A stretch of DNA of 64,000 nt. It comes from Posidonia oceanica (Eukaryota > Streptophyta > Magnoliopsida > Alismatales > Posidoniaceae). Positions 4,487 through 61,015 of this stretch are shown piece by piece. The notes beneath the pieces were generated by a model that was not told where the DNA came from, ran no database searches, and saw only the letters and a list, made by a program, of their open reading frames with translations. Position 1 is the stretch's first letter, and each line of letters starts with the position of its first letter. Both the position numbers and the translations under genes were made by a program. The DNA lies in assembly GCA_037176725.1 (NCBI GenBank), contig JAZBRS010000039.1:23720001-23784000 (forward strand). Reading direction: 5' to 3'.

Positions 4487-4518
<32 letters not shown>

Positions 4519-5609: not shown

Positions 5610-5639
5610 CTTCCTGAACCCCTGCACTGCATTCATTTG

Positions 5640-7180: not shown

Positions 7181-7191
7181 TGGCGACTCCG
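7181..7191 (+). other. PBS-like fragment inside the LTR
   Basis: TGGCGACTCCG, the first 11 nt of the primer-binding site, lies 175 bp upstream of the true PBS and inside the LTR (also at 24244-24254 in the 3' LTR). Element 2 has TGGCGACTCTG at 44648-44658. May mark an older LTR boundary. Confidence 0.6.
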
Positions 7192-7354
7192 ATTTTGTCT
7201 TATCTTCTTCTTTTCTTCCCCCTTTTCCTCTTTTAAATGTTTTCGAGTTAGGTCTTCCTTCTCGGACATAGCCGCTTATAGTGAGCCTGATTCCGATCGG
7301 TGCACGCGAGCTTTGGCATCGTGCATGGACGATCCGAACACCGGGATTACTACA

Positions 7355-8789: not shown

Positions 8790-8968
8790 AGTTCAGTAAG
8801 CGATCTCCTTAGCCGGAGCTCGGGTCTCTCCTTTGCTGACATCTCTGCTGAGACACCTGTACTCGACCATCTCTTTCTAAGCTACTCGTCTTTGCGAGCA
8901 TAGCTCCTCGTAGAGCCCGTCCCCTTTTCCCTCGTCGCAGCCCCGTTTTGACTCGCTCTCGGTCAGCA

Positions 8969-11900
8969 ATGGCCCAGCGCACTGTCGAGACCCCCCTCAC
9001 CCTTGCCTCGGAGGTGGTTCCCGCTCCGGCCCCTCCGGTTCCCGTTTCTAACCCCTCTGTGCCCTCTGTGATGCCAGGCTTTTCCCCTCTGTCGTCCGGG
9101 GCACCCCAGTTTGCTGTGGGACAGTGGCAGACGCTCGCTCCTCCTGACCCGGTCGCCGAGTCCATCTTGATGGCCACTTCACGTGTTCTGGAGGCACCAC
9201 TGACCCCACCTTCTCAGGGTTTTGTCACTTTTGACCCTTCTGCTGCGGCGACTCTCGCCTTAGGATTCCAGTCTCCCGGACAGTCTGGATCTCTTGGTTC
9301 TGGTTCCTCGCCGGCACTGCAATTCAGTGTTCCCACTGACGGGACACCTGAAGAGCAGTACCAGCAACTGATGGACACTATCCAGCGGCTGCAGGGTATA
9401 GCTCTATTAGTCCGCCCTCCTTCCTCTCCTGTTGTTCCTGAGGTTCCTGTGCGGCCTGCTCCCGCACATCTTGCATTGCACTCTGCACTTCCGCCTAGAC
9501 CATCGTCCCAACTGCTCACGGTTCCGATGATGGGGGCACGTGTTCCGCCTCTTGCATCAGCACCACACCTCACACAGCATGCACCTCCGCCACCTGGTGG
9601 CCAGTCATTCGGACTGGTGGGAGCACAGTATCTCGCAGGCCCGTCCCCCGGCACCGCCCCGGTACGGCCGTTGATGCTCCAGCATCCTGCACCCACCGCA
9701 CAGCATACCGTCTACCCTCCCCCTTTGCATCAGGCTCAGAATTCCACATGCATCCCTCCTTGCACTCCACCACAGCACGGGTATGCCGGCCATCACCTTG
9801 CATCACCAGGCGACGTGATGGTGGATCCGGAGGAGTACCTCGGTGCGACCCAATCGGCATACGTGGTCCCTGCCCCCGCTGCCCCATCTCCTGTAGCAGC
9901 TATTCCAGACCCCATCAACAACAGAATGGATGTTCTAGAGAAGGCACTGCGTCTAGTGCAGGGCACGGACCACCAGACCTACCAGTTCCGAGACCTCTGC
10001 TGTTTCCCAGAGGCTGTACTCCCCCCGAAGTTCAAAATACCAGACTTCGAGAAGTATGATGGTAGGGGCTGCCCCATAGCCCATCTGAAGGCGTACTGCG
10101 GTGATCTCGCCCAACTCCAGGCGGACGAGAGGTTGCTGATCCGCCTGTTCCAGAAGAGTTTGTCTGGTCCGGCCCTCAAGTGGTTCACCTCGCTTGACAT
10201 GGCTACGATCAAGACTTGGAACGACCTAAGCCAGGCGTTCTTGGAACAGTACTCCTTCAACCTCGATCTGGTCCCAAAGCGCGCGGACTTGATCGCAACC
10301 AAGCAGAATCCAGGCGAGCCGTTCGGGGAGTACGTCGGCCGCTGGCGTGCCCTTGCCTCGCAAGTTCGAGATAGGCCCTCCGACGAGGAGTCTATCGAGA
10401 TCGTCATAAAAGGGGCACAGCCATCTACCGGAGCTCTGCTTAGCATCCAACCCGTCACAACCTTCACTGCTTTGATCCGAGCTGGCACTCGCGTAGAGAG
10501 TTTGTTGCGGAGTGGCAACTTCCCCGCACTCTCTGTGCTTGCCAGGCAGGCCCCCACCAGCAACGACGGTAGTAGCAGCAGCGCCATCAACAACAACAGC
10601 AGTCTCAACAACAACCGTCCCAAGAGGAAGGATCCGCCGAAGCCCGTTGTCGCATACGTCGACTCCCCCGCTGCGCCCGTCCGTCTGGCGTCCCGGCCTG
10701 CCCCTCCTCAGATCTATTACGCACCTGCACCTAAGGCACACCCTACACCACAGATCACTACCACCGCTCGACCGGTCTATCCTGCCGCACCGATTCAGCA
10801 AGGACAATTCCAGAGGTCGAGACGGCCACCCATGGAGAAGCGGAAGTTTGCCCCACTGGTGGAACCGCTCACTGCCGTCCTCCCGAAGGTTGCGTCGCTC
10901 CTGAGATTTCCGGAGGTTCGCCCGCCACCAAACGCACTACCGTATTGGTTTAAGGCGAACCTTTTCTGCGACTTTCATCGAAGCGTCGGGCATTCGACTG
11001 ATAGTTGTTTCACTCTCCGGAATGCTATCCAGGACTTGATCGAATCGGGAACGATTGTGATCGACACGCACGAGGCATCCACTTCTGCACCATCTCATGC
11101 ACCTGCATCAGCATCTACCCCAGCCAATGTTGTCCGCTGACCCCTGCTGGAGCACTCCTATTCAGGAGGCGCAGGGACCTCAGGAATTCACTCCTTGTTT
11201 CCTTCTGGGTCTCTCACATCAGTGGTAGATCCTTCCGAGCTTATCCATGATGTTTCTACTCCCTTTCCAGTCTCTCTCTATCTTGCAGCTATCGCCGGTT
11301 CCGAGTCGGGCGTCCATATGATCCGACCGAGTGCCAGGCCGGAGCGTTCTCCTGCATCAGCCGCCATGCTTTCCCGGGCCCAAGCCCCAATACATCTCCT
11401 AGTCAGACCTCAGCTAGAGCTTCCTGTGCACCTACTAGCAAGACCTCAGTCCCCACCTAGCTTGTCTTCCCAACTACCCTCCTACCCATGCCCTCCTCAG
11501 CCTGTAGCCCCCCTCGTGCTCGCCGCACGCGCTCCCGTGGTTATTAACCTAACCCGGGATACCCATCGCGTACCCTACAGCTACGCCACAGAAATGTGTG
11601 CGGAAGTGATGCGATCGGGGAGGGTCTACAGACCTCCAGCTCCAGTAACCAGACCTAGTCATCCACAACCTGCAGGACCATTGCCTTTGGTCCAGCCTGT
11701 AGTCCCACTACCTTCAGGCCAGCCTCTTGAGCCCACCATAGCTGAACCTGTCCCCACAACTGCACCACCTGCTACCAAGAAATGCCAGCCTAAAGCCGAC
11801 ATCACATCCCAGCTCAAAAAAGTTAAAGCCGACATATCCATCTGGGACCTGATACACACCTCGGCTGAGCACCGCGAAGCTTTCCTTCGTGTGTTCCAAG

Positions 11901-14152
11901 CCGCCCGTGTGTCCCAAGCCATAGAACCCGCCGCCTTGGAAAGCATGGTTGGGATGATCGCGGAGCCCCAGGTCATCACTTTCACGAGTGATGAGCTGCC
12001 TCCGGCGGGGATTAATTACAATCAACCCTTATTCGTCACGGTACAATTCAAGAACTTTCGCATTCCCCTTGCACTGGTCGATAATGGGTCAGGCCTTAAT
12101 GTCTGTCCCTTGCGAACAGCAACCAAGCTCGGATTCAAGGCCGAGGACATTACTCCAGCTGTAAAGGGAATGACAGCTTTTGATAATACTCACCATGACG
12201 CTCTAGGGATTTTGATTATTCCTCTTACCATTGGTCCGGTCACATTCGATGTGGAATTCTACGTCGTCGACTTGGAACCTAACTTCAACTTTCTGCTTGG
12301 GCGCCCTTGGCTCCACAAGCATCAGGTTATCCCCTCGACCCTCCATCGCATGATCAAGTTCCGCCGAGGCGACGATGTAATCGTTGTCATGGCGGAGAAT
12401 TTTGAGAAGGAGCGGATCGAGGCGGTTTCTTCTATCTCTTCACGGACTGTCCCCTTTGACCCTGAACTTTCGAACGCTTTGTATCGCGTTAATCGGTGCG
12501 AGCCGGTTAACTTTTTGCCAGATCTTGAACGTGTCAACTCCTTGGCCGTTCACAGCAACCCCTTTCGGATGGTCGAGAACGTTTGTCACCGATGGGGCTA
12601 CGTCAAAGGGACACCGCTCGGGCGACATGGCCAAGTAATCGCTGAACCAATCATGGCGGAAGAACGAAGAGACAACGAGGGTCTAGGTTACGACCCTCAC
12701 TCCGATAAAGGCAAGTGCCCGCAAGCAAAGAATCAGAGATTGGTCATACCTCAGAGCTTAGCTAACTTTACAAGTGCAGGTATCCTAGACTCAAGCGCAG
12801 TTCAAACCATAGTGCCGTCGGAGCCGTGTCAAAGCCCTCCCCCACAGGAGGAGGACTGGGTCTGCGTTGAGGACTATTACTCGGACGAGGAACAGTCGGG
12901 CACAACAGGGGCAGTTCAGACTTGCAGTGAAAGCCAGCCAAGCCCAACAGCACATCAGTCGGTTTATCTGGCCACTCCTTCCACGGATCATGAAGCAGCA
13001 GTCTTGGCAGAACCCTTGGCAGATTTGGCAGTCTTTGACTCTCCTGCAGCCATGTCAGCAATACCAGCACCAATTCAAGCACAGTCAGTCAGTTCGCAGG
13101 CAACCGTTGTCGCATCAGTGCAACTACCACCTTCGCAGAAAGGTCAATCGCTGAGTTCAGTCAGCAGCACAGCTCAGCCCTCTTCAGAGGCTACATCATA
13201 GGCAATACAGCCAGTTCAGTCAGTCACACTTCCCCTTGCCGCAGACCGGCAACCTTCATGGCCAGATCCTATGGTATCGGAGGCCGTGCTCTCATCATCA
13301 TCACCAGTCACGGAGAACCAGCTGAGCATCGCGGTCTCCCGGCCTTCGGGCCTTCAAGAGAGCACCTCCGCCCATCCTCTAACAGCAGCAGTCACTCTGG
13401 CAGCATATCCATCTGCAATCCCTCTGACTAGACCATCTGGGTCTCCCTTGCCAGGACAGTTGCAATCAGGCGCGCCCGTGAGTCAGAAGATACAGGTACC
13501 GGAGACAGTAATCCATCTCGCAGCCGAGCCAGTGCCTCAGGCCCTCGGCGCCCACTATGTCGATTCACCCCCAGATGAGGAAGAAGAAGGGGCGGTAGAA
13601 GCCCAAGTCGATTCGTGGATGTCTGATTTGGAGCTGCTTTACCAAGAACAGCTCGAATCCATAGTGGAAGACCTGGCACAGCACCAAGCCGCGGAAAGGA
13701 AAGGAAAAGCCGTAGTTACGGATCCTCCTCTGCGAGAGGGCTCCACCTCCATCATGGCCCTGGAAGACAACTCAAGAATGACGGACTCCTCTAGACCCGA
13801 TGAGCTCATCGCCATTCAACCTGAAGGTGGGTCTAGTGGGCTTGTGCAGCACATGCCTCATTCGGGGAGGATAGCAAGGGGCGGCGGTATCCAAGTCATC
13901 CGCCAGTCCGATACGCCCTCCACAAGCATGTCAGCAGACTCAGAAGAAGAGACACCAGTGGATCACACAACAATGGCAACAGAACAGAAAGCAGAATCAA
14001 TGACGGAGTTGCCAGAAGTTTCAGTGGCAAAGTCAATAGCAGTATCAGTTGCAGAGTCAGTAAGGCCTTTAGTAGTATCAGCAGAACATGCAGCAGTGTC
14101 ATCAGCAGCAGAGCATACGGGAGAAGTTGTCAGAACAGAGGCAGCGCAGTGA
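8969..14152 (+). pseudogene. gag-pro: Element 1 gag-protease polyprotein, interrupted
   Basis: Start chosen at ATG 8969 because Met-Ala-Gln follows a shared GGTCAGC context in both elements. A Pro-rich N-terminal part (to about 9900) precedes the Gag core (9915-10470; FKIPDFEKYDGRGCP, WNDLSQAFLEQYSFN) and a zinc knuckle of form CX2HX4HX4C (about 10970-11010). Protease follows with active-site DNGSG (Asp codon 12080-12082) and LGRPWLH. A degenerate G-patch-like segment (about 12590-12690) and an acidic, Gln/Ser-rich linker complete it. All lie in one frame, broken by TGA at 11138-11140 and TAG at 13199-13201. The frame ends at TGA 14150-14152, created where the pol deletion shifted frame. Would have supplied particle protein and processing protease. 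Confidence 0.9.
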
Positions 14153-14226: not shown

Positions 14227-15587
14227 CTGGGAGTAGCCATTGGGGATTCATCCTCCCATTTGGCATACCTTCACCACTTGCATATCTTTGCATCTCTTTT
14301 TGCTCTATCTCCTCCATACTTTACTTCATCCACTCTCTTGCCTTTCCCGACATCACAACACTCCTGTGCATCCCTGCTCATTCCGTTCATATTCCCTTAT
14401 CAAATCATGCATTGCATGTTGCCCGGTGATGAAAACCGGAGGTGCTTGCCTGCTGCGAAAGGAGTCTCCCGACCTCACCTGGTACTACTTAGATGTCTTG
14501 ACTAGTGAGGGAGCCACCACTCAATGAGAGCGGGCGAAGTGCCCAAACCCCTAAGGACTTACACCCTTTAGAAGAGTGCTAGGTGTTAGTCAGAAAGCAG
14601 TACATATCCCAGCCTAGATGTGCGGAAAAAGAGAAAGAAAGAGAAAGCGAAAAGCGCGTACCCGAAAGACCCTAACGCCCATCTCCCCTGAGGGAGGGGA
14701 CAGCGGAAACCTGCAAGCCCAAAAAAAAAGAGAGCAAGGAAAATGAAAAAAAAAAGGAACAAAAAAGGAAAAAAAAACAAACAAAAAGAGAATGATAGAA
14801 AAGAAAGGAAGGGAGACAAATGCCCCATTCCCGCAAAAAAAAAAACCAAAAAAAAAAGGCAAAAAAAAGAAAAAGAGAAAAAAAAGAAGAAGAGAATAAA
14901 GGCAAGCAGCGTAACCCCGCACCTCTCACCTACCCCAGAAAAGAGTCAAAGCCCGGGGCGAGTCCTCCTCGCTTCCAAAATGGGGACGAGGAGAGCCCTG
15001 TACACCGACATAAAAAGGGAAAAAAGAGGTAGGAGTGAGTGTAAGTCCTTGAGAGTTTGACATGGAGCCCGTCCCCTCTACACCACCACCAAACATCACC
15101 AACATCCTTTCCTCGAGTGCCACCAACAAGTCAGGAGTCCGAGTAGAGTTCGGTGAGTCAAGGACCGCTCCCTTTCTATACAGCAGGCACCAAAGCACCC
15201 CGATACTGAGGGCAAACTGCACCAAATCATGCACGCATCTGCATTTTCCAGTCATCTCCACCCTTCTGATCATCCTACTCTGCAAAGGCTTACTCCAGCG
15301 CTGAGACAGTACCTCTACTTAGCATGCGTTGGCACCGTCAGGCTGCGACAACCCAGGGTTCCCGACGGTCCCCGCCACATCAACAGAATGTCCTTATGCT
15401 TATACATGTTCAATTGCCATAGTCTGAATGTGTACTGCTAAATGTGCTGCACTGTTTCTACCAGTTTCAAAATCTGCTTTCCTATGATGGTTTTGCGCTT
15501 ATATAGGCTCTGATAATTCACAGTCTTGGCAACAAGTACCTGAAGACTCTTGTGACAGCCGTCTGCCCACATCCTGCAATCTGTGCA
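14227..15587 (+). other. Spacer between pol remnant and extra ORF
   Basis: Non-coding. Conserved with element 2 at 14418-14560 (GGTGATGAAAACCGGAGGTG; ACTACTTAGATGTCTT) and 15150-15215 (GTGAGTCAAGGACC; CAGCAGGCACCAAAGCA). 14733-14905 is an A-rich simple tract that makes open frames but looks non-coding. The rest is diverged. Confidence 0.7.
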
Positions 15588-16790
15588 ATGGGTTTCCCCA
15601 CCTTGGTAACCCCCACACACTGCTCCGAGATCCTGCGAGAATGGATCGGCAAGCTGACAAGAGATGACTGTGAGAAGCTGTGCCTGTGGGGCATTCCGAC
15701 CAAACTGCTCAAGGCTGCTAATGTAGAAGTAAGCCGCCATCTTCTGTGTGCTGCTGCGCGATTCTGGAAACCAGCACAGCATGTCTTCCGTTTCGGCAGA
15801 ACTGAACTGACACCCACGCTGGAAGAAGTGCGCCGAATCTGCGGCTTTTCCAAGATCTTGGGGCCGCCCATCTTCATGAGGCGTGACGGATACATGGCAG
15901 TCTTGAGACAGCTGACCGGCCTCTCTACCCAAAGTTGCCAGCAGAAGCTGATTTGTACTAGCGGGCCCACGCCTCTGCTTCGCCTAGCGTACTTTGATGA
16001 TATTGTGGAAAAACGCGCTGAACTCGGAGACGAGCTGTGGCTCCGAGGGTTTGTCACCCGTTTCCTAGGCGAGCTGGTCTTTACTCATGGCAAGGTAACA
16101 GTGGCCATCGAGGTTGCAGAGATTGCATTAACGGTGGTGACCCAGCACATAGACCTGGCACCGGTTGTCTTGGCAGAGACCTACCGCGGCCTGGACCGCA
16201 TCTCGCATCGCTGCCGCCACTTTCATGGTTGCGGATCATTTATTCAGGTCTGGTTAGCGGCGCACACTGAGATAGACCTTCTGCGCCCCCAAGTGCATGC
16301 TTTCGAGGCCTACTGCAGCAGCGGCCATGCTAAGGCAATCAAGAGCGTCAAGGAAGAATATGAAAGGCTATCGGGACTGACAGACGACGCAGTCACATGG
16401 CGCATCATTCCTTCTGCAGCCGAAGCATTCACTGTCTTCTTCGATACGCGCGACATGCGTCTGGTTGTGCTACCAGGATTTACTGCGGGTGTAGAATATC
16501 ACCCTATCAGAGTCATGCGCCAGTTCGGCTTCCAGCAGGGCGCCTTTGTCGACAGCGCAGCGCCTAAGCTTCTTCAAGAATATCCACTCAGTACAATTGC
16601 CCCCACGAAGGAGCTGGCCAACCTGATGCAGCATGGTGTGCAATCAACAGACATCGCTGCAATAAAAGGTGTAGGATGTACCCCTGAGTACATCACTGAA
16701 GTGCAGGACCTCTAGCCCATTGACGAAATCCCGCCGAGCGGTCCCTTATTCCCTGACTCTGGAAAATCAAAGAAGGCCCGAATCAGCTAG
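15588..16790 (+). pseudogene. Extra ORF downstream of pol, plant-mobile-domain-like, one stop
   Basis: Start ATG at 15588 chosen because MGFPTL opens both copies. The 375 residues to TAG 16713-16715 align throughout with the element 2 copy. Beyond it the frame continues to TAG 16788-16790 (PLFPDSGKSKKARIS), and the internal TAG replaces a Trp codon (TGG) of element 2. Motifs: WGIPTKLL, FWKPAQHVFRF, TPTLEEVRRICGF, DELWLRGFVTRFLGEL, YRGLDRISHRCRHFHGCG. The pattern of an aromatic FRF segment followed by a TxTLEEV helix resembles plant mobile domain (PMD/DUF7745-type) proteins. Function is unknown. It lies directly upstream of the hairpin region in both elements. Confidence 0.72.
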
Positions 16791-17039: not shown

Positions 17040-17350
17040 CGTGCCGTCCGACCTGCTACCGGACATACCCGGCTGAGTCTCCTTTGGGCTGGTACCCCAA
17101 ACTACTCGTCTGACAAACACGTCAGTTTTGTCCACCCTTCGCTTTTCTCGATACCAGGGACGTTTCGACCAACCCCTGGTATCATCCTGATACCAGGGGC
17201 ATCTTTTCAGATGCCCCACGGAATCTCACCCTTTATCTCATCTCCTCTTTGCCGGCCGATAAGTCCGATATCTTATCACCATTCCCAATCAATCAATCTC
17301 ATCATTATCTCATCTCCTCCTTGCCGGCTGATAAGTCCGATATCTTATCA
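17040..17350 (+). other. Hairpin cluster A of the element 1 3' UTR
   Basis: Consecutive hairpins: GGTA/TACT (17091-17106), GACAAA/TTTGTC (17112-17132), GATACCAGG/CCTGGTATC (17150-17183), CCTGGTATC/GATACCAGG (17175-17197, an alternative partner), GGGGCATCT/AGATGCCCC (17196-17217), and two GATAAG/CTTATC hairpins with loop TCCGATAT (17258-17277 and 17330-17349). Element 2 has the same order with compensating changes. Confidence 0.8.
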
Positions 17351-17760
17351 CCTTTTTCAACCAAGCTCTCATCATTACCTCATCCCCCTTCTTTAGCATT
17401 AGTTCTCATCATTACCTCATCTCCCTTCTTTAGCATTAGTTCTCATCATTACCTCATCCCCCTTCTTTAGTATTAGTTCTCATCATTACCTCACCCCCTT
17501 CTTTAGCATTAGCTCTCATCATTACCTCACCCCCCTTCTTTAGCATTAGCTCTCATCATTACCTCATCCCCCTTCTTTAAGCATTAGCTCTCATCATTAC
17601 CTCATCCCCCTCCTTTAGCAGTAGCTCTCATCATTACCTCATCCCCCTTCTTTAGCATTAGCTCTCATCATTACCTCACCCCCTTCTTTAGCATTAGTTC
17701 TCATCATGATCTCATCCCCCTCTTTAGCTTAATTTCTCATCATGATCTCATCCCCTCTTA
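17351..17760 (+). repeat. 36-37-bp tandem repeat (TCTCATCATTACCTCA type)
   Basis: About eleven imperfect units of TCTCATCATTACCTCATCCC plus CCTTCTTTAGCATTAG. The counterpart in element 2 (59115-59905) is longer and has TCATCATGATCTCAT, with a perfect ATCATGAT palindrome. Non-coding. Confidence 0.9.
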
Positions 17761-18025
17761 TCAAGCAATCAAGCACTCCCCAATCAATCACTCATCAATC
17801 AATCATTCAGCATTCAATCACTCATCACTCGATCATTCATCAATCAAGCACCCTTAGGCTGATATCCTAAACTATCAACAATCAAGCACTCTCAGGCTGA
17901 TATCCTAAACTATCTATTCTCAGGCTGATATTCCTAAACTATCGACCCAGGCTGATATCCTAAACTATCTATTCTCAGGCTGATATTCCTAAACTATCTA
18001 TCTTTTGGCCGATCCATGGTTGGCC
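17761..18025 (+). other. CAATCACTCATC-rich spacer and first GATA hairpins
   Basis: 17761-17860 is simple CAATCA/ATCATTC sequence. From about 17862 the GCTGATATYCCTAAACTATC module repeats. GGCC (18007-18010) and GGCC (18022-18025) flank GATCCATGG next to the rosette; element 2 has GGTC/GGCC, which still pairs with one wobble. Confidence 0.65.
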
Positions 18026-18866
18026 CGCAGTTGTGTTATACGGCTGACATCCAGTAACTGTCCCTCGCAGTGCCGCCAGGCTGATAACCTAAACTATCTA
18101 TCTAGGCTGATATCCTAAACTATCTAGGCTGATATCCTAAACTATCTATCTAGGCTGATATCCTAAACTATCCGGCATCTGCGTTATACGGCTGACATCC
18201 AGTAACTGTCCCTCGTAATTGCCCTTTCCAGGCTGATAACCTAAACTATCTATCTAGGCTGATATCCTAAACTATCTAGGCTGATATCCTAAACTATCGA
18301 TCTAGGCTGATAACCTAAACTATCGATCTAGGCTGATATCCTAAACTATCTATGGCAATTACGTTATACGGCTGATATCCAGTAACTATCCCTTGCAATT
18401 GCTCTTTCTAGGCTGATAACCTAAACTATCTATCTAGGCTGATATCCTAAACTATCTAGGCTGATATCCTAAACTATCGATCTAGGCTGATAACCTAAAC
18501 TATCGATCTAGGCTGATATCCTAAACTATCTATCGCAATTGCATTATACGGCTGACATCCAGTAACTGTCCCTCGCAATGCCGCCAGGCTGATAACCTAA
18601 ACTATCTATCTAGGCTGATAACCTAAACTATCTAGGCTGATATCCTAAACTATCTATCTAGGCTGATATCCTAAACTATCCGGCACTTGCGTTATACGGC
18701 TGATATCCAGTAACTATCCCTCATGGTTTGCCCTTTCCAGTTGATAGGACTGTAAACTATCTATCTAGGCTGATAACCTAAACTATCTATCTAGGCTGAT
18801 ATCCTAAACTATCTATGGCAACCATGTTATACGGCTGATATCCAGTAACTATCACTCACAACTGCG
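18026..18866 (+). other. Six-hub hairpin rosette of element 1
   Basis: Six hubs (TATACGGCTGAYATCC then AGTAACTRTCC) have stems GACA/TGTC at 18046, 18194 and 18554 and GATA/TATC at 18374, 18702 and 18837. Arms between hubs close by pairing: 18066-18075 with 18173-18183; 18214-18223 with 18354-18363 (10/10); 18394-18402 with 18535-18543 (9/9); 18574-18583 with 18681-18691; 18722-18732 with 18817-18826. The outer stem 18026-18035 pairs with 18857-18866 (10/10). Each arm holds 3-5 GCTGATATCCTAAACTATC mini-hairpins. Pairings were read by eye; folding energy was not computed. Confidence 0.82.
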
Positions 18867-18975
18867 CCTTCCGGTTGATAGGACCGTAAACTATCGCCAG
18901 GCTGATAACCTAAACTATCGCCCTCGGCTGATGATCCGAAACTCATCCGGTCGATAAGTCCGACAACTTATCACC
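18867..18975 (+). other. Terminal hairpins after the rosette, satellite-like
   Basis: GATAG/CTATC (18877-18895), GATA/TATC, GATGA/TCATC (18930-18947) and GATAAG/CTTATC (18953-18972, loop TCCGACAA). The first and last are the two hairpin types that make up the 72-bp satellite, on the opposite strand; the last matches the satellite at 20 of 24 positions. Confidence 0.8.
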
Positions 18976-19400
18976 TCCCCGCGCGACTTCGTCCCAAAAG
19001 ACGGAGCCCCGCATTCTTCCGCGTCTGGGAAAAGGTTTGCCTCTCCCGTCGCGCCTTTGTGACCTTGGCTATCCTTCTTTTCGTGGCAGGTCTGGACCTC
19101 CTCGTCAAGCTCCGCGGTGCACCGCAACGTCCCTCTTCAGCGTCGTCAACATCGCCAGCGTCACCCGCGTCGCTTCGGCCCCCCGGTCGGTACTAACTCT
19201 AGTACTAACTTTTGCATTGCATCCGCATTAGCATGCATCGCATACATTGCATCTCATCCATTTGCACCTGCACTTTGCATTGCGGCAACGATCCACGATG
19301 TTCGGCGCATCCGCCGAATAAGTGGCTCACGCCGATAGCGAACCCTCTGCTCTTGCCGGTCAAATGGGGTGTCCCGTCAACCCTGAGCAGCGGCCTCGCT
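18976..19400 (+). other. Region before the polypurine tract, two conserved hairpins
   Basis: Mostly unique, moderately GC-rich then TGCAT-rich. TTCGGCG/CGCCGAA (19301-19318, loop CATC) and CCCTGAGC/GCTCAGGG (19381-19405) are kept in element 2 at 61512-61529 (one G-U) and 61591-61630 (longer loop). Confidence 0.75.
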
Positions 19401-19401
19401 C

Positions 19402-19414
19402 AGGGAGGGGCATC
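19402..19414 (+). promoter_or_regulatory. Polypurine tract of element 1
   Basis: AGGGAGGGG followed by CATC and then the TG of the 3' LTR. Element 2 has the identical tract at 61627-61639. Primes plus-strand DNA synthesis. Confidence 0.85.
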
Positions 19415-22400
19415 TGTAGACACCCCATTTTGACAGGCTAAATTGGTGGAATCTCTCTCTCTGGTGGCTTCTGGACCAAACCAACACCTAAACCCAAACC
19501 TATGTTAAAACTTACACAATCCTTTTCATCCTATTCCTCAAAACAAGCTTAAACTTGACCTAAACCTACACCCCTTTCCCGAACCCGAAAACTATCCAAA
19601 ATCCATAGGAAAACTCACCATCCCTGACTTAACAAATCCACCAAAAAGTCCATAAAATCTCAGACCAAAACCACTCCCAAAAACCCTTTGAAACTTAGGT
19701 AAAACTACCCTTTTTCTACACCTCAAAACCCTCCAAAACTTTCTCAAAACTGAACCAAAACTCTAGGACCAAGACTAGAAACCCTAGACCCCACATCCGC
19801 CAAATTTCACCCCTTTCCGAGACCTCTAAGACCCCCTTTTGGCCAAATTATCGTTTTCTCTCTCCTGGATTATCATTTTCTCTCTCCTCTCTCTCTCCTG
19901 ATTATCCTCCTCCTTTTCATCCCCTTTTCTCCCACTTTCTGGCCTGGCTGTGGGCCCCCTCTCTGCTTCTATCCTTCCTCTATCTTATTCCTATTTTTAC
20001 TTTATTTTTAACACTTTCCCTAATTTTCAAAAAATCTTTTTCCTTCAACCTATCTCTTTTCCTTTTATCTCCCTCTTTTTTCCATTTCTTTCCTCCTTCT
20101 CTTTTCCTTTTCCCTCTCTTGCAAAAATCCATAAAAACCCCTAAAAATCTGTAAAACCCCAAAACATAAAAGAAACAAATCAGAACCCTAAGAAAAACAA
20201 TTAAAAAACATTAAACAAGCAATTAAGAACCTAAACTTAACTAAAGCAAGCTAAAAAAGAAAATCAAGAATGCAAACTAAAAAATGCAAAACAAACTAAA
20301 ACAAAATACTGTAAAATCAAGTAAAAAACTGAAATAAAGTCAGAACCTACCAAAGATAAAAACCCCACTAAAAGAGTTAAAAAAAACAAACCCTAAAGAG
20401 AAGAATTAAAAATCAAATACTAAAACAGGTAATTAAAGAAAACAAAAGACTTAACCTAACGAACATAAGGAAAATAACATAAAACTTAATTAAAAGAAAA
20501 AGAAAATACAGTTGGAAGACTTAAGAACACTTAATCAAACCAGGAAAAAACCAACTAAAAAATATCAAGAAGAATTAACAAATAAAAATAAAAAAAAAAC
20601 ATAGTTCAAAAGACTTAAAGGAGAAAAACATAAAAGACTAGAACTAAAAAGCCCAAAACCCACTCTAATTAACCTAAAAATAAATCTTAAAAATCCTAAT
20701 TAACATCCTAAGCACTTAACAAGAAAAACATAATTAAAAAAAAAAACAACTTAAAAGACTTAACAAACATTTAATCAAAATAAAAAAACAAATTAAAAAC
20801 AAAGAGAGCCAAAAAACCCTAAAACCCTAATCCCATCCCCATTTAAAAGGACAAAAGCCCTCACAACCAAGGGAGCCACACACAACACAGCCGTCCTTCT
20901 CCCTCTCTTTTTTTTCTCCTTCAAAAAAACCCAACAGACCTCTCACCTTCCTCCTCTCCAACACAGCAGACCACCAACACAGCCGTCCCTCTCCCTCTCT
21001 CTTTTTTTTTTTTTTTCTCCTTCAGAAGCCAACAGCCCTCCTACCAAGAGCCTCCCACCAACAGCCGTCCCTCCCTCTCTTTTTTTTTCTCCTTCCAAAA
21101 GCAACCAACAGCCAACCTCCTCCCCTCCACTCTCTCTTCTTTCTCCTTTGAACAACCACCCAACAGCCCACTCCCACCATACCACAGCCTCCATCATCTC
21201 TCCAGACCTCCACCATATCCATCCCCAACCCAGAAGCCAGAGAGAAGAAGAAAAAACCAGAGGAAGAAGAAACCAGAGGAGAGAGAAAAACAGCCAAACT
21301 TCTCCATTTTTCTGCGACCACTTCGGCGTACGAAAAATTTATCCGAGCCCACCACTAGATCCGTCTCGTTCTCCCGTCCAACCCCATATTTTTTTTTTCG
21401 CGTTTCGAGCCCCGTGGCGCCCGCAGCGGCTCGCCGGAGTTGGCCTTCTTCCCCGGCGCCGTTCGCCGGAGCAGCGGCCACGCCGCCTCCCCGCGCCGCC
21501 ACGCCGCTCCACAGGCCCGCCCAAACCTCGCCGTGCCTCCGCCGGACCTCCCACAGGCCAGCCGAGCCACCAGCAAGCCGTTCCGCCGCCTCCCCCGCCG
21601 TGCAATGGCTCGCCGGCGTCAGCCCTCCCTCTTCCCCGGCGAACCACCCGCATGCTACTGTGCATGCTACAGTAAGCCCCCTTCGTTTCCTTTTTTTTTT
21701 TTTTTTTTTTTTTAATTTTTCCTTATCTTAGTAACTTTACCACATATTGCATTTCCATCTTATAGTTTTAATTATTTGCACTTAGCTCCTTCATCTGTTT
21801 AAATTCATTTAACTTTGAATTAAAACCATATTAAATTGCATAAACTGTTTGTATTTTTCTGTATTTGCATGATAGTCCATTTACTGTGTGTTTCAGTTAT
21901 AAAATATTATGCTTTAGCCCCTCTGCTTTACATTATTGCACTTAGGTCCTATTTTAAATCAGTCTATTTAATTACATGCATTTTACTATGCTGCATTGCA
22001 TTCTAAGTCCCTGCATGTTTCTGTTTTTTCATTTAGGTCTAACACACTGTAGTAACTTAGGTTTTGATTTTAATTTTTGGTTGATGCATTGCACTTTTGC
22101 CCCTCTGTTTTTTCATTTTTGCATATAGGTCCATTTTAAATGGACAGTAACTCTTGCATGCATTTTTAGCTCATTACATTGCATTTTTGACCCTGATCTT
22201 TTTAAAAATCACATTGCAGTCCTGTAATCTATTTTTCAGAGCATGTTTTCCATATGAAATTGCATATTTGACCCCTGCATGATTTGAAAATCACACATAG
22301 AGCCTTGCATCTTTCAAAAAACCATGTGAAAAGACTATTTTGCCCCTAAGTTGCATTTCAACTCCTATGCTTGCAAAAATTGCATGTAGGCTCTCCACTT

Positions 22401-24417
22401 GCATTCCCGGACTCCCTAGAACCCCTGTTTTCTGGAAAATTTGCATTTTAGCCCCTTTCTTTCTTCAAAAATGTTTTTGAATCCCTGTTCTTCCCAAATT
22501 GCTTTTCTTTGTCTTTTCTCGCTTTGCATGCATCCTGCATTCATCTAGTCTGGCATTTTAGCTCCCCTTTGCATACACTAAGCACTTTTAACTCCCCTTC
22601 ACTTGGGAGGACCTTCAGCACACCCCTAGGACCTCCTGAACACTTAGATCTGTTCCTCTCTCCTGTTCTGGCTCTTCCGCTCCGAAGCTGCGATATCTTC
22701 CAATCCGACCGTTTGATCTCCTCAAATAAGCTGCCCAGGCGACCGCAGCGAAGCGCTCTTCAGCATGGACCAAGCAGATCTCCGATCAGACTCCCGGATC
22801 TCCAGGTATATCTTCCTGAACCCCTGCACTGCATTCATTTGCATGCCATTTGCATCATTTTGCGTGCCCTTTAGTTTTTTTCGCCCCGCTTTGCGTGTTT
22901 TCATGTTTTCTCGCTCCGTTCTGCGCGCCGCTTCTTTGCCTTGCACCGTTTTGCGTGCCTTTTAGTTTTCTCGCCCCGTTTTGCGTGTTTTCATGTTTTC
23001 TCGCTCCGTTTCGCGCGCTGCTTCTTTGTTTTGCACCGTTTTGCGTGCCTTCTAGTTTTTCCGCTCCGTTTTGCGTGCCTTCACGTTTTCTCGCTCCGAT
23101 TTGCGCGCCGTTTCTTTGTTTCGCCCCGTTTTGCGTGCCCTTCAGTTTTTCCGCTCCGTTTCGCCCGCCGCCTCTTTGTCTTGCACCGTCTTGCGTGCCC
23201 CTTAGTTTTCCGCTCCGTTTTACGTGCCTTCATGTTTTCTCGCTCCGTTTTGCGCGCCGCTTCTTTGTTTTGCACCGTTTTGCGTGCCCTTTAATTTTCT
23301 CGCCCCGTTTTGCGTGTTTTCGTGTTTTCTTTCTCCGTTTTGCGTGCCCTTTAGTTTTCTTGCACCGTTTCGCATACTTTCAAGTTTTCTCGCTCCGTTT
23401 TGCGTGCCGCTTCCTTGTCTTGTACCGTTTTGCGTGCCCTTTAGTCTTCTGGCCCCGTTTTGCGTATTTCCAAGTTTTCTCGCTCCGTTTTGCGTGCCGC
23501 TTCTTTGTCTTGCCTCGTTTTGCGTGCAGTCTTGTTTTCCTGCACCGTTTTGCTGCCCTTTCGTTTTCTCGTCTCGTCTTGCGTGCCCTGGTGTTTTCTT
23601 GCCCAGTTTTGCGTCCTTCTTTCGTTTTCTTGCACGGTTTTGCGTTCTTTTTCCGTTTCTTGCCCCATTTTGCATGTCAACCTTGTTCTCGCATCTTTTT
23701 GCATACTTGTCTCGTTCCTCGCATTGTTTTACGCCGTTTTCCCTTGCATGTTGATTGCATTGCATGGTTTTCTCGCTGTTTTGTTTTATCGCCCGCATTT
23801 GCATATAGGGCAATGATGCTTACTGTCCGGAGTTCTCACGAGCCAGGTTTCGCCCGGTTCGGAACACAGACAGCGTTGCTGAGCGCTTAGATTGCACGTT
23901 TACTTTCTTGCTTTGTCTTTCATCACCTAGAGCACACCTTTGAGCATTTAGATAGACATTCATTGGCACTTAGGCATTCAAAGTCTGCATTTCCCTGCAT
24001 ATGCGAGCGTAAGCCTAGAAAGACCGATTCTCGGGCGTGTCGGGGGTGCCTAACACCTTCCCCGCGCGTAACAAGAGTCCTTACCCTCTCTTGGCCCGCA
24101 ATGACCATCTTGCCCTTGTCCTAGGCACGAGTCACATCATTTGCATTCTTTTGCATTGCTTTGCTTTGCATCCTTTGCTTGGTTTTGCGTGATTATTCAC
24201 GCATTTCCCCGGTTTTCCTCGTCTCCCGATTTAATAGACTTGGTGGCGACTCCGATTTTGTCTTATCTTCTTCTTTTCTTCCCCCTTTTCCTCTTTTAAA
24301 TGTTTTCGAGTTAGGTCTTCCTTCTCGGACATAGCCGCTTATAGTGAGCCTGATTCCGATCGGTGCACGCGAGCTTTGGCATCGTGCATGGACGATCCGA
24401 ACACCGGGATTACTACA
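19415..24417 (+). repeat. Element 1 3' LTR (5003 bp)
   Basis: Same contents as the 5' LTR: TATA-like box 20842-20849, candidate splice donor at 22803-22810, minisatellite 22846-23735, conserved block near 24015-24110, PBS-like fragment 24244-24254, end TACTACA. Scattered substitutions against the 5' copy are most obvious in the first 400 bp. A CGCGCG near 24062 reads TGTGCG in the 5' LTR, a likely deamination. Confidence 0.95.
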
Positions 24418-24422
24418 CTTAT
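24418..24422. repeat. Right target-site duplication of element 1 (CTTAT)
   Basis: Matches 2206-2210 and continues in phase into the satellite monomer. Confidence 0.96.
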
Positions 24423-27400
24423 CGATCAAAATCGTATAGTTTACGGTCCAGTCAACCGGAAATGATGATTAGCATGATAAGTTCTCTGGCTTTTCAATGA
24501 AGATCGGATAGTTTTTCGGTCCTATCAACAGGAAGCGATGATTGGCTTTATTAGTCTCCAGGCTTATCAACCAGGATCGGATAGTTTACAGTCCTATCAA
24601 CCGGAAGCGATGATTGGCATGACAAGTTTTTAGGCTTATCAACCAAGATCTTATAGTTTACGGTCTTATCAACTGGAGCCGAAACTTTACGATCCTATCA
24701 ACCGGAAGCGTTAGTTTACGGTCCTCTCAGGAGGAAGCGATGATTGGCATGATAAGTTTTCAGGCTCATCAACCAAGATCGGATAGTTTATGGTCCTATC
24801 TACCGGAAGCGATGATTGGCAAGATAATTTATCAGGCTTATCAACCAAGATCGGATAGTTTACGGTCCTATCAACTGGGAGCGATGATTAGCAGGATAAG
24901 TACTCTGGCATATCAACCAAGATCAGATAGTTTTCGGTCCTATCGATCGGAAGCTATGATTGGCATGATAAGTTCTCAGGCTAATCTACCAAGATCGGAT
25001 AGTTTACGGTCCTATCAACCAGAAGCGTTGATAGGCATGATAAGTTTCCAGCCTTATCAACCCAGATCGGATAGTTTACGGTCCTATCAATCGGAAGCGA
25101 CGATTGGCTTCACAAGTTTTCAGGCTTATCAACCAAGATCGGAAAGTTTACGGTCCTATCAGCTAGAAGTGATGATTGGGATGATAATTTTTCCTGCTTA
25201 TCAACCAAAATCGGATTGTTTACGGTCCTATCAACCGGAAGCAATATTTGCCGAGATAAGTTTCCAGGCTTATCAACCAAGATCGGATAGTATACGGTCC
25301 TATCAACTGGAAGTGATGATTGGCATGGCAAGCTTTCAGGCTTATCAACCAAAATCGGATAGTCTACGGTCCAATCAACTGTGAGCGATGATTGGCAGGA
25401 CAACTTTTCTGAGTTATCAACCAAGATCGGATTATTTAAGGTCCTACCAATCAGAAGCGTTGATTGGGATGACACGTTTCCGGACTTATCAACCTAGATC
25501 GGATAGTTTACGGTCCAATCAACCGGAAGCGATGATTGGCATGATAAATTTTCAGGCATATCAACCAAGATCTGATAGTTTACGGTCCTATCAACCGGAA
25601 GCGATGATTGGCATGATCAGTTTTAAAGCTTATCAACTAGGATCGGATAGTTAACAGTCCCATCAACAGGAAGCTAAAGTTTATGGTCCTATCAACCGGA
25701 AGTAAGAGTTTACGGTCCTATCAACTAGGAGAGATGACTGGGATGATAAGTTTTCAGGCTTATCAAACATGATCGGATAGTTTACAGTCCCATCATCCGG
25801 AAACGATGATTGGCATGATAAGTTTTAAGGCTTATCAACCTAAATCGGATAGTTTGTGGTCCAATCAACCGGAAGCGATGATTGGCAAGATAAGTTTACC
25901 AGCTTATCAACCAAGATCGGATAGTTTACTGTCCTACCAACCGAAAGCGATGATTGGCAGGTTAAGTATTCCAGCTTATCAACCAAGATCGGATAGTTTA
26001 TGGTCCTATCAACCGGAAGCAATGATAGGCATGATAAGTTCTCAGGCTTATCAACGAAGATCGGAAAGTTTGCTGTCCTATCAACCGAAAGCGATGATTG
26101 GCTTTATTAGTCTCCAGGCTTATCAACCATGATCGGATAGTTTACGGTCCTATCAACTGGAAGCGATGATTGGCATCTTAAGTTTTCAGGCTTATCAACC
26201 AAGATCGGGAAGTTTACATTCCAATCAGCCAGAACTGATGATTGGCATGATAATTCTTCTGGCTTATCAGCCCAGCACGGATAGTTTACGGTCCTATCAA
26301 CCTGAAGAAATGATTGGCATGACAAGTTTGCAGGCTAATCAGCCATGATCGGATAGTTTTCAGTCCTATCAACCAGAATAGATGATTGGCATCATACGTT
26401 TTCGGCTTATCAACAAAGATCGGATAGTTTACGGTCCTATCAATTGGGAGCGATGATGGGCTGGATAAGCATTCTGGTATATCAACCAAGATCGGATAGT
26501 TTACGGTCCTACCAACCGGAGGCGATGATTGGCATGATAAGTTTTCAAGCTTATCAACCAAGATCGGATAGTTGAAGGTCCTGTCAACCGGAAGCGATGA
26601 TTGGCATGATAATTTTTCAGGCTTATCAACCAAGAACGGATAGTTTACGGTCCTATCAACCTGAAGCGATGATTGACATGATAGGTTTTCAGGCTTATCA
26701 ACGAAGATCGAACAGTTTATGGTCCTTTCAACGGGAAGCGATGATTGGCATGATGAGTTTTCAGGCTTATCAACCCTGATTGGATAGTTTACGGTCCTAT
26801 CAACCGGAGTCGAAACTTTACGATCCTACCAACAGGAAGCGACGATTGGCATGATAAGTTTTCTGGCTTATCAACCAAGATCGGACAGTTTACGGTCCTA
26901 TCAACTGGAAGCGATGATTGGCATGATATGTTTTCAGGCTTATCAACCAAGATCGGATAGTTTACGATCCTATCAAACGGACGCGATGATTGGCTGGATA
27001 AGTATTCTGGCTTATCAAATAAGATCGGATAGTTTACAGTCCGATTAACCGGAAACGATGATTAGCTTGATAATTTCTCAGGCTTATCAACCAAGATCGG
27101 ATAGTTTACAGTCCAATCAACTGGAAGCGATGGTTGGCATGATAAGTTTCCTGGCTTACCAACCAAGATCGGATAGTTTACAGTCCTATCAACCGGAAGT
27201 GACGATTGGCATCATTAGTTTTCAGGCTTATCAACCAATATCGGATAGTTTACGGTCCTTTTAGCCAGAAGTGATGATTGGCATGATAATTTTTCAGGCT
27301 TATCAAAGTAGCTCGGATTTTTTACGGTCCTATCAACAGGAAGCGACGATTGGCAAGATAAGTTTCCAAGCTTATCAACCAGGATCGCATAGTTTACGTT

Positions 27401-30400
27401 CCTATCAACCGGATTCATCGATTAGCATCATAAGTATTCAGGCTTATCAACCAAGATCAGATAGTTTACGGTCCTATCAGCCAGATGTGATGATTGGCAT
27501 GATAATTTTTCTGGCTTATCAACCAAGATCGGATAGTTTACGGTCCTATCAACCGAAGCCGAAACTTTACGATCCGATCACCGGATGCGTTAGTTTACGG
27601 TCTAGTCAACTAGGAGCGATGATTGGCAGGATGGTCTTTCAGGCTTATCAACCAAGATCGGATGGTTTACGGTCCTATCACGAGGAAGCGTTGTTTAGCA
27701 TGATAAGTTTTTAGGCTTATCAACCAAGATCGGATAGTTTACGGTCCTACCAACCGGAAGCGATGATTGGCATGATAAGTTTTCAGGATTACCAACCGAG
27801 ATCGGATAGTTTACAGTCCTATCAACCGGAAGCGAAGATTGGCATTACAAGTTTTCAGGCTTATCAACGAAGATCGGATAGTTTACGGTCCGATCAGCCG
27901 GAAGTGATAATTGGCGTGATAAGTTTTCAGGCTTATCAACCAAGATCGGATAGTTTACGGTCCTATCAACCGGAGCCAAAACTTTACGATCCTTTCAACC
28001 GGAAGCGTTAGTTTACGGTCTTGTCAACTAGGAGCAATGATTGGCATGATCATTTTTCAGGCTTATCAACCAAGATCGGATAGTTTACGGTCCTATCAAC
28101 TGGAAGTGACGATTGACATCATTAGTTTTCAAGCTTATCAACCATGATCGGATAGTTTACGGTCCTTTCTGCCAGAAGTGATGATTGGCATGATAATTTT
28201 TTTGGCTTATCAACCTAGCTCGGACATTTTACGGTCCTATCAAGAGGAAGCGTTGATTGGCATGATAAGTTTCCAGGCTTATCAAACAGGATCGCATAGT
28301 TTACGTTCCTATCAACCGGATTCATTGACTGGCATCATAAGTTTCCAAGCTTATCAACCAAGATCGGATAGTTTGCGGTCCTATCAGCCTGAAGTGATGA
28401 TCGGCATGATAATTTTTCTGGCTTATCAACCAAAATCGGATAGTTTACGGTCCTATCAACCGGAAGTGACGATTGGCGTGATAAATTTTCAGGCTTATCA
28501 AGCAAGATCGGAAAGTTTATGGTCCTATCAACCGTAAGCGATGATTGGCACGAAACGTTTTCAGGATCATCAACCGAGATCGGATAGTTTACGGTCCTTT
28601 CAACTGGGAGCGATGATTGGTAGGATATGTTTTCTGGCTTATTAAACAAGATCGGATAGTTTACGGTCCTACCAACTGGAAGCGATGACTGGCATGATAA
28701 TTCATCATACTTAGCATCCAAGATCGGATAGTTTACGGTCCAATCAAATGGAAGCGATGATTGGCATGATAAGTTTTTATGCTTATCAACCAAGATCGGA
28801 TAGTTTACGTCACTATCAACTGGAAGCAATGATTGGCATGACAAGTTTTCAGGATTATTAACCAAGATCGGATAGTCTACGGTCCTATCATTGGGAAAAG
28901 ATGATTGGCAAGATAAGTTTTCAGGCTTATCAGCCTAGATCGGATAGTTTATGGTCCAATCAACGAGAAGCGATGATTGGCTTGATTAGTTTACAGGCTT
29001 ATCAACCCAGATCGGATAGTTTACGGTCCTATCTACCAGAAGCGATGATTGGCAGGTTAAGTATTCTGTCTTATCAACCAAGATCGGATTGTCTGTGGTC
29101 CAATCAACCGGAAATGATGATTGGCATGGTAAGTTCGTAGGCTTATCAACGAAGATCGGATAGTTTGCGGTCCTATCAACCAGAAGCGATGATTGGCTTG
29201 ATAAGTTTCCTGGCATATCAACCAAGATCGGATAGTTTACGGTGCTATCAACCGGATGCGATGATTGGCATCATAAGTTTTCAGGCCTATCAACCAAGAT
29301 CGTATAGTTTACTGTCCAATCTGCCAGAACTGATGATTAGCATGATAATTTTTCTGGCTTATCAGCCTAGCTTGGATAGTTTACGGTCCTATCGACCGGA
29401 AGAAATGATTGGCAAGACATGTTTCAAGGCTTATCAACCTTGATCGGGTAGTTTTCAGTCCTATCAATCGGAAGCGATGATTGGCAACGTAAGTTTTCTG
29501 GCGGATCAACCAAGATCGGATAGTTTACGTTCCTACCTACTCGAAGTGATAATTGGCTTGATAATTTTTCAGGCTTATCCACCAAAATCGGATAGTTTAC
29601 ACTCCTATCAATCGGGAGAAATGATTGGCAAGATAAGTTTTCAGGCTTATCAACCAAGATCGGATAGCTTACGGTCCTATCAAACGAAGCGATGATTGGC
29701 ATGATGAGTTTTCAAGCTTATCAACCTAGATCTGATAGTTTATGGTCCTATCAACTGGAAGCGATGATAGGCATGATAAGTTTTCAGGCTTATCAACCAA
29801 GATCGGATAGTTCACGGTCCTGTCAACAGGGCGCGATGATTGGCAGGATTAGTATTCTGGCTTATCAACCAAAATCGAATAGTTTACGGTCCTATCCACC
29901 GAAAGCGATGATTGGCATGATATGTTCTATGGCTTATCTACCAAGATAGGATAGTTTACGGTCCTAGCAAATGGAAGCGATGATTGGCATGATAAGTTTC
30001 CAAGCTTTTCAACCAAGATCGGATAGTTTACAGTCCTATCAACCTGAAGCGATGATTGGTAGGTTAAGTATTCTGGCTTATCAACCAAGATCGGATACTT
30101 TATGGTCCTATCAACCGGAAGTGATGATTGGCATCATTAGTTTTCTAGCTTATCAATCAAGATCGGATAGTTAACGGTCATATTAGCCTGAAGTGATGAT
30201 TGGCAAGATAATTTTTATGGCTTATCGACCTAGCTCGATTAGTTTACGGTCCTATTAACAGGAAGCGATGATTGGCATGATAAGTTTCTAGGCTTATCAA
30301 CCAAGAACGGATAGTTTACGGTCCTATCAACCGGAAGTAATGATTGGCATCGTAAGTTTTCAGGCTTATCAACCAAGATCGGATAGTTTACGGTCCTATC

Positions 30401-60183: not shown

Positions 60184-61015
60184 GCAGTTGTGTTATACGG
60201 CTGACATCCAGTAACTGTCCCTCGTAATTGCACTTTTCTAGTTGATAGGTCTGTAAACTATCCACCGGTTGACAGGACCGTAAACTGTCGCTCCAGATGA
60301 TAGACTGTAAACTATCGCGTGCAATTACGTTATACGGCTGACATCCAGTAACTGTCCCTTGCAATTGCGGTTTCCAGTTGATAGGTCTGTAAACTATCCT
60401 CCAGTTGATAGGTCTGTAAACTATCCACTAGTTGACAGGACCGTAAACTGTCGTTAGGCTGATACTCCTAAACTATCACCCGCAATTGCATTATACGGCT
60501 GATATCCAGTAACTATCCCTCATCATTGCGCGTTTCCAGTTGATAGGTCTGTAAACTATCCGCCGGTTGACAGGACCGTAAACTGTCGCTCCAGTTGATA
60601 GGTCTGTAAACTATCCGCCAGTTGGTAGGACTGTAAACTACCACGCGCAATCATGTTATACGGCTGACATCCAGTAACTGTCCCTCGCAATGCCGTTTCC
60701 AGTTGATAGGACTGTAAACTATCCTCCAGTTGATAGGTCTGTAAACTATCCACCGGTTGACAGGACCGTAAACTGTCGCTCCAGATGATAGACTGTAAAC
60801 TATCCGGCATTGCGTTATACGGCTGATATCCAGTAACTATCCCTCATGGTTTGTGGGTTCCAGTTGATAGGTCTGTAAACTATCCTCCAATTGATAGGTC
60901 TGTAAACTATCCACCGGTTGACAGGACCGTAAACTGTCGTTAGGCTGATACTCCTAAACTATCACCCACAACCATGTTATACGGCTGATATCCAGTAACT
61001 ATCACTCACAACTGC
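60184..61015 (+). other. Six-hub hairpin rosette of element 2
   Basis: Hubs with stems GACA/TGTC at 60203, 60340 and 60666 and GATA/TATC at 60501, 60825 and 60987, the same C-C-T-C-T-T order as element 1. Arm stems: 60223-60232 with 60320-60329 (10/10); 60360-60369 with 60481-60490 (10/10); 60521-60532 with 60644-60655 (11/12); 60686-60695 with 60805-60814 (10/10); 60845-60857 with 60965-60976 (one bulge). Outer stem 60184-60192 with 61007-61015 (9/9). Arms hold 3-4 mini-hairpins each, mainly GATAG/CTATC, GACAG/CTGTC (60271-60289) and one GGTAG/CTACC (60624-60642). Confidence 0.85.

Follow-up and report, generated by a model that had tools for sequence, protein, structure and literature searches.

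A closed ring of hubs and pseudoknot-bearing arms predicted in the 3' UTR of Ogre-type retrotransposons of Posidonia oceanica

The window, a 64,000-nt stretch of the Posidonia oceanica genome, holds two retrotransposons, E1 and E3, whose 3' UTR repeats can pair into a closed ring of hubs alternating with arms, each arm filled with units that are better read as H-type pseudoknots than as hairpins. Possible pairings, compensatory variation and survival of the figure in copies with five, six and seven hubs are all visible in the letters. Because pairs are kept while letters change, the tail repeats look like a working part of the RNA, not junk, and on this comparative basis we put the probability that the domain is a conserved cis-acting structure of the sense RNA, kept by selection in an Ogre-type 3' UTR, at roughly 0.8.

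E1 lies inside a satellite array and is flanked by a 5-bp target duplication, CTTAT (2206–2210 and 24418–24422). Its LTRs of ~5 kb each, placed on the + strand at 2211–7354 (5') and 19415–24417 (3') from a blastn comparison of the two LTRs and from the flanking letters, are 96.9% identical over 4.2 kb, and their repeat-rich end 91.1% over an overlapping 1.6 kb (both by blastn). On the same strand E1 encodes gag (8948–11140, PF03732), an ORF with aspartyl protease and G-patch domains (11195–13201; PF13650, PF01585) and an extra ORF with a plant mobile domain (15552–16715, PF10536). The + strand of E3 carries an RT/RNase H ORF (50757–53135; PF00078, PF17919, PF17917), an ORF with a second RNase H (RVT_3) and then integrase (53214–54323; PF13456, PF17921, PF00665), and likewise an extra ORF with a plant mobile domain (56409–57611, PF10536). 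Gag, the protease with G-patch and the plant mobile domain ORF are common to both elements in Pfam searches. An aspartyl protease followed by a G-patch domain, seen at 11195–13201 in E1 and 49275–50720 in E3, also occurs in some betaretroviruses. This G-patch domain could be an RNA-binding partner for the 3' UTR domain.

As a rule, Ogre-clade elements have an additional RNase H of archaeal type, placed after the first RNase H and before integrase, and 57% of Ogre elements carry an extra ORF with a plant mobile domain, according to the account of the clade in PMC6317226. RVT_3 (PF13456) stands between RT/RNase H and integrase in E3, a placement for which Pfam does not distinguish archaeal-type RNase H and whose domain order is also that of Retand elements, and PF10536 occurs in both E1 and E3. 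The domain set fits Ogre-type Ty3/gypsy elements of the Tat lineage as that account describes them. A search with the RT protein gave 2864 relatives; among the best 120 of these, the plant-named ones come from many flowering plants, mostly at 56–67% identity over 60–70% of the query; a further one bears a Salmonella label, presumably through contamination. No plasmid relatives of the element were found by DNA search, and a plasmid search with the RT protein returned three records, each below 60% identity (best 36%). In RT-based locus searches a pattern matched in 3, 26 and 180 stretches, with no relatives among them.

In the 3' UTR of E1, six 27-nt hubs start at 18036, 18184, 18364, 18544, 18692 and 18827, each an exact match to TTATACGGCTGAYATCCAGTAACTRTC. 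The sequence-only reading had proposed six hubs and five arms here, with the bases before hub 1 complementary to those after hub 6, and all six stems pair as it claimed. On the + strand, the 5' strand of the closing stem (18026–18035) pairs at 10 of 10 positions with its 3' strand (18857–18866). Between the two strands lie, in order, hub 1 (18036–18062, GACA/TGTC); arm 1 (18066–18183, stem 18066–18075/18173–18183) with four pseudoknot units; hub 2 (18184–18210, GACA/TGTC); arm 2 (18214–18363, stem 18214–18223/18354–18363) with five units; hub 3 (18364–18390, GATA/TATC); arm 3 (18394–18543, stem 18394–18402/18535–18543) with five; hub 4 (18544–18570, GACA/TGTC); arm 4 (18574–18691, stem 18574–18583/18681–18691) with four; hub 5 (18692–18718, GATA/TATC); arm 5 (18722–18826, stem 18722–18732/18817–18826) with three; and hub 6 (18827–18853, GATA/TATC). 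Every arm stem comprises 9 or 10 pairs, with a single bulged base in the 3' strand of arms 1 and 4 and in the 5' strand of arm 5.

E3 carries a second ring on the + strand (60184..61015; hubs at 60193, 60330, 60491, 60656, 60815 and 60977), and its six hubs follow the same type order as those of E1 (C C T C T T), with 550 of 784 aligned columns of ring DNA identical. Among the 720 permutations of flank pairing the ring order is tied best in E1 and the sole best in E3. When both elements are pooled, the best assignment of the 12 five-prime to the 12 three-prime flanks is the ring order (12/12), with a score that none of 200,000 random permutations reaches. Between E1 and E3, both partners have changed in 13 arm-stem pairs that still form a standard pair, and one arm-stem pair is broken, with the register counted from the hub and the count uncertain where a bulge shifts it; the far extension of the closing stem, itself doubtful, gives 2 double changes, 1 single and 4 broken, and 45 pairs are unchanged. 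Arm stems measure 9–13 bp across E1 and E3, with a minimum of 7 in one further copy (L044).

Further copies are abundant. A first search of the 2.96-Gb genome gave 1574 candidates, of which 40 places, including the window's own copy, scored near full length at 94–100% identity. The 28 E1-type loci that we examined represent 26 distinct places (L027 equals L006, and L028 equals L008), with six hubs in 25 and seven in one, and at each locus the ring order ranks first or second among all permutations. These loci are too alike for covariation. The seven-hub ring (L010), a close relative of E1, carries an extra 148-nt hub-plus-arm module and keeps its closure. Reading on for 200 kb to the right of the window, in a sample independent of ring similarity, we found five additional rings. 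Three, among them a five-hub ring, are of E3 type; the other two are more distant and have five and six hubs. The ring order ranked first in all five, the core of the closing stem is retained in all five, and they contain stems absent from the window, such as CGCAAACCC/GGGTTTGCG and CATAATTGCA/TGCAATTATG. Because five-, six- and seven-hub copies all close, closure is kept while the number of modules varies; the closed ring of the sequence-only reading holds, and its number six is inessential.

Within the hubs, GACA/TGTC and GATA/TATC halves are never crossed in the 12 hubs of the window, and pairing types are uncrossed in 39 of 40 hubs over seven rings (two pre-ring E1 units that a looser threshold also called hubs were left out of the seven-ring counts) and in all E1-type loci. 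The S1 of the hub, the first of the two stems described below for the smaller units, is bulged and invariant. Two other arrangements of the ring were rejected: the score of stems that enclose their own hub is attained by 597 of the 720 permutations for E1 and by 528 for E3, and pairing of hub halves with the next hub would match types for 2 of 6 neighbours (4 of 6 with G.U) versus 6 of 6 within the hub, although minimum-energy folds nonetheless include some pairs between one hub and the next. Elsewhere in the elements no stretch of 9 to 11 nt is exactly complementary to the hub, and the hub pattern had no match in the viral contigs and genome contigs collections.

The arms had been said to enclose three to five mini-hairpins each; the counts of four, five, five, four and three agree with this, and the hairpins themselves are better read, from their letters, as H-type pseudoknots. 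Each kind of unit has a second complementarity that crosses the first, as in TAGG-ct-GATA-t-CCTA-aac-TATC and CGGT-t-GACAG-g-ACCG-taaa-CTGTC, so that a stem S1 of 3–4 bp and a stem S2 of 4–7 bp interlock, with a loop L1 of 1–2 nt and a loop L3 of 3–5 nt, mostly A-rich. The arms and the stretches beside the ring together hold some 23 to 31 units, the majority of which could fold as H-type pseudoknots. Plain mini-hairpins were rejected as a full account, given this crossing complementarity and the fact that only 24 of 58 non-hub mini-hairpins have an energy below 0 kcal/mol on their own; the S2 hairpin of the GATA kind alone is unstable, at +0.2 to +1.4 kcal/mol.

A letter-free pseudoknot descriptor, some of whose matches are not family units, matched 30 times in E1 and 26 times in E3, against shuffle means of 5.45 and 7.1 and maxima of 10 and 12 among 20 shuffles. 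Because units were listed by S2 alone, pairing in S1 is an independent test. Of the 21 distinct non-hub units of the window (anchors 18007 and 61074 left out as non-family, unit 61077 added), 15 have a fully paired S1 core, against a permutation mean of 6.2 and with none of 20,000 permutations reaching the observed value. Over seven rings S1 is fully paired in 27 of 50 distinct units, a set that includes a few non-family matches such as GGCC and GGAGAG; here the permutation mean is 9.5 and the maximum 21, and again 0 of 20,000 reach it. Among all 188 units of the seven rings S1 is paired in 148, needs G.U in 12 and is unpaired in 28, and some of these 28 without the standard core are non-family matches. 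S1 pairs inside its own unit in 25 of 25 cases in E1 and 18 of 22 in E3, versus 19 of 24 with the neighbouring unit on either side in E1 and 7 and 10 of 21 in E3. Pairing between adjacent units was rejected for this reason, pairing within the unit being more frequent.

Both stems vary in compensatory fashion. In the seven rings S1 occurs as AGG/CCT, CGG/CCG, CAG/CTG and TGG/CCA, joined by GGG/CCC and CGT/ACG in the upstream array, and its first pair is A-T, C-G or T-A, and G-C in the upstream array. S2 occurs in the rings as GATA, GATAG, GACAG, GGTAG, GATGA and GATAAG, each with its complement, and upstream as GGCA/TGCC and as GACAAA/TTTGTC in E1, where E3 has GACAAG/CTTGTC at the corresponding position. 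The units combine what is expected of an H-type pseudoknot, namely two crossing complementarities with compensatory change, a short L1 and a longer L3. Within the ring regions of E1 and E3 we found no unit-like sequence whose S2 is broken; among five further, upstream units of the GATAAG kind, one (59095) has a broken pair. The unit pattern had 0 matches in the viral contigs collection.

Structured RNA probably extends beyond the ring, further than the sequence-only reading described. On the + strand of E1, two pseudoknots at 17085–17132 combine GGG/CCC with GGTA/TACT (one G.U) and CGT/ACG with GACAAA/TTTGTC, the latter having its GACAAG/CTTGTC counterpart in E3 at 58843. Two more at 17253–17350 pair CGG/CCG and GATAAG/CTTATC, and five pre-ring units (AGG/CCT with GATA/TATC) occupy 17854–17998. 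Behind the ring, 18872–18972 holds pseudoknots of CGG/CCG with GATAG/CTATC, AGG/CCT with GATA/TATC, CGG/CCG with GATGA/TCATC and CGG/CCG with GATAAG/CTTATC. The upstream structured part of E3 (57889–59002, + strand) contains pseudoknots of GGG/CCC with GGCA/TGCC or TGCT (seven listed) and covarying hairpins of the CAGCTGAG type. At 58260–58800 similar hairpin loops (ttcatcct, tcatcc) lie among the GGG/CCC pseudoknots, on the covarying stems CTCGACTGG/CCAGTCGAG, CTCAGCTG/CAGCTGAG, CTCAGCTA/TAGCTGAG and CTCGGCTGG/CCAGTCGAG. Linear CT-rich repeats of 36–37 bp lie between the ring and the structured part upstream of it (17364–17755 in E1, 59121–59906 in E3), and the E3 copies contain the palindrome ATCATGAT.

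A natural control is provided by the 72-bp satellite, whose arrays flank E1 at 4–2210 and 24418–38998 on the - strand, antisense to the elements, and consist of degenerate units of the ring kind. The satellite unit resembles the post-ring pseudoknots of E1. Among 243 satellite units S2 is intact in 100 and S1 in 58, so that in the majority of copies at least one of the two stems is gone. With a looser threshold that caught both unit types, S1 and S2 show fewer double changes than expected under independence; a pair group outside S1 and S2 shows 11 double changes versus 5.3 expected. Since the satellite has no covariation in S1 and S2, common repeat ancestry alone does not yield it.

Substitution rates are relevant to the same question. 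Among eight E1 copies, picked by ring similarity, the ring shows 1.29% substitution, compared with 7.56% in the upstream flank and 10.70% in the downstream one, and tandem repeats in the upstream flank make alignment less sure there, so divergence may be overstated. Of four E3-type copies, three were located by place and not by ring similarity; the four differ by 1.6–5.0% in the ring (last four arms), 5.4–12.8% upstream and 2.0–10.3% downstream; in one of the six pairs, E3 versus L048, ring (1.6%) and downstream flank (2.0%) are nearly equal. The ring thus appears, from these alignments, to evolve mostly more slowly than its flanks. The ring copies compared are related by descent, and our permutation statistics ignore phylogeny. 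Hairpin-prone units might also have spread by template switching with no selection at all, a hairpin arm copied onto the other giving functionless compensatory change; tandem repeats of Tat-lineage 3' UTRs are attributed to illegitimate recombination or abnormal strand transfer in PMC7004042, and the length of arm 5 in E1-type loci moves in steps of 26 nt (131, 157 and 183; also 135). However, arm copying would not be expected to give two crossing stems, nor would closure in five-, six- and seven-hub copies or a rate below that of the flanks be expected without selection, and we regard this explanation as very unlikely.

The sequence-only reading had proposed folding 18020–18870 against shuffled controls. 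In the sense strand RNAfold gives z = -3.77 there and -3.78 for E3, relative to dinucleotide shuffles, with 0 of 20 shuffles reaching either value. The unconstrained minimum-energy folds of E1 and E3 hold every ring stem, with 8 to 12 pairs each; the sequence-only reading was right to see, in this retrotransposon 3' UTR, hubs arranged in a ring and arms that themselves branch. The GAYA/TRTC hairpin of the hub itself appears in these folds at 0 of 12 hubs (E1 and E3 together), which slightly lowers our confidence in the structural part. Hubs 1 to 4 instead form an invariant GCTG/CAGT hairpin around AYATC, and hub 5 pairs with hub 6 in both elements; these pairings may represent an alternative state of the hub. 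Antisense nested folds are as good or better (z = -6.95 in E1, -3.83 in E3), and nested folding does not decide the strand. Antisense folding and the missing hub hairpin, together with the 28 of 188 units without a standard S1 and the satellite pair group, stand against the structure.

Loop geometry bears more directly on strand. In an H-type pseudoknot 1–2 nt suffice to span the deep groove of S2, with 3–5 nt for the shallow groove of S1, and the reverse arrangement, 1–2 nt across the shallow groove of a stem of 4–7 bp, is not feasible. This favours the sense strand. A feature of DNA or of the antisense strand (a cruciform, single-stranded DNA during reverse transcription or an antisense transcript) would accommodate the antisense folds and the 25 (E1) and 16 (E3) matches of the pseudoknot descriptor on that strand, but its pseudoknots would need exactly that infeasible loop, and odd pairs also lean the other way, with G.U exceeding A.C by 13 to 7 in S1 of distinct units and by 8 to 2 in the upstream helices of E3, although the same scan of the E1 stretch gave 2 versus 6, mostly in chance-like helices. 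We consider such a feature very unlikely, and pseudoknot geometry does not favour the action as single-stranded DNA that the sequence-only reading had offered as one option. A conserved sense-RNA structure remains the better account, and the fold probably forms in sense RNA inside cells.

What such a structure would do is a separate matter. One shape is repeated many times with varying letters, the ring closes compactly and copy number is tolerated, all of which suggests avidity. We therefore propose, as possible though less likely than not, that full-length genomic RNA uses the domain as a multivalent platform on which the Gag/nucleocapsid protein of the element docks. Arms clamped by stems would alternate with hubs, and the closing stem would join the ends into a ring that holds the sites compact and the ends together; each pseudoknot would offer one shape, and a single RNA could nucleate a particle. 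The number of units may drift, since avidity would matter and not the exact count. Localisation and packaging of Ty3 RNA need both UTRs and POL, as described in PMC11381356. By analogy, Gag binding is conceivable, and we would rank candidate partners with the element's own Gag first, export factors second and translation or stability factors third. A broader synthesis, in which a closed RNA carousel gains and loses hub-plus-arm modules, interchangeable pseudoknots bind one protein, the hypervariable repeats are structural modules and the satellites their fossils, seems to us plausible but short of even odds.

Export elements sit likewise between the last ORF and the 3' LTR, a placement that we count towards a nuclear-export role for the domain, in which a host factor would bind the pseudoknots and carry unspliced genomic RNA, in the manner of the musD MTE or the IAP RTE. 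The MTE resembles the present domain as a structured RNA of an LTR retroelement that acts on full-length RNA and has pseudoknot and kissing-loop motifs (PMC12786077); it differs in belonging to an animal element and, in what that source says of it, in having no tandem array described. Medicago Ogre elements carry introns, so that their full-length RNA must leave unspliced, and the export of LTR retrotransposon RNA in plants has had no direct study, both according to the same source. Rfam gave nine matches up to E 5 in E1 17200–19450 (best E 1.1), none at the gathering threshold and none to a tRNA-like family, which weighs against export, a role we think unlikely, and against the alternative drawn from plant viruses as well.

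That alternative is a translation or stability domain like the tobamovirus upstream pseudoknot domain, recruiting eEF1A or blocking decay. The tobamoviruses, which are plant viruses, likewise have pseudoknots in series in their 3' UTR; TMV has three, interacting with eEF1A/GTP, in the description given in PMC4683447, versus tens in E1 and E3, several times more. The tobamovirus domain adjoins a tRNA-like 3' end; such an end was not found beside the E1 domain, which precedes the 3' LTR and does not stand at the end of an RNA that is presumably capped and polyadenylated. On balance we doubt this role slightly more than a role in export. The docking platform for Gag heads the candidate functions. 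Ty3, whose genomic RNA structure offers another comparison, is also a Ty3/gypsy element; however, both pseudoknots predicted in its RNA (PMC11381356) are within GAG and POL and thus outside the 3' UTR.

The Tat lineage is already known for hypervariable repeats in the 3' UTR and for satellites that descend from them (PMC7004042). Neither 'hairpin' nor 'secondary structure' appears anywhere in the main text of this paper on the Ogre repeats, and, unlike that account, we read the repeats of E1 and E3 as structural modules in a closed ring. Among the literature matches listed we recognised no report of a pseudoknot array or ring in 3' UTRs of plant LTR retrotransposons, and a search with the unit letters gave no paper whose title concerned the E1/E3 repeat. 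If the fold is true, the 3' UTR tandem repeats of abundant plant retrotransposons would be evolving RNA structure and not by-products, with a testable reason for their existence and for their continued seeding of satellites. RNA structure would then tolerate gain and loss of modules, rings of five, six and seven hubs would be a natural experiment in RNA modularity, and the fold would point to an RNA-binding partner, the element's Gag or a host factor.

The satellite-type unit pattern occurs in antisense in 15 of the 20 10-kb stretches that make up the 200 kb to the right of the window (L029–L048), four of which also hold antisense rings or ring parts, and in sense orientation in the two stretches bearing sense rings. 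These counts suggest an alternation of satellite with inserted Ogre elements over ~260 kb. Within the LTRs of E1, 30-bp repeats (TTTTGCGTGCC...) are present at 5648–6566 and 22858–23673, with similar ones in E3 at 43887–44100.
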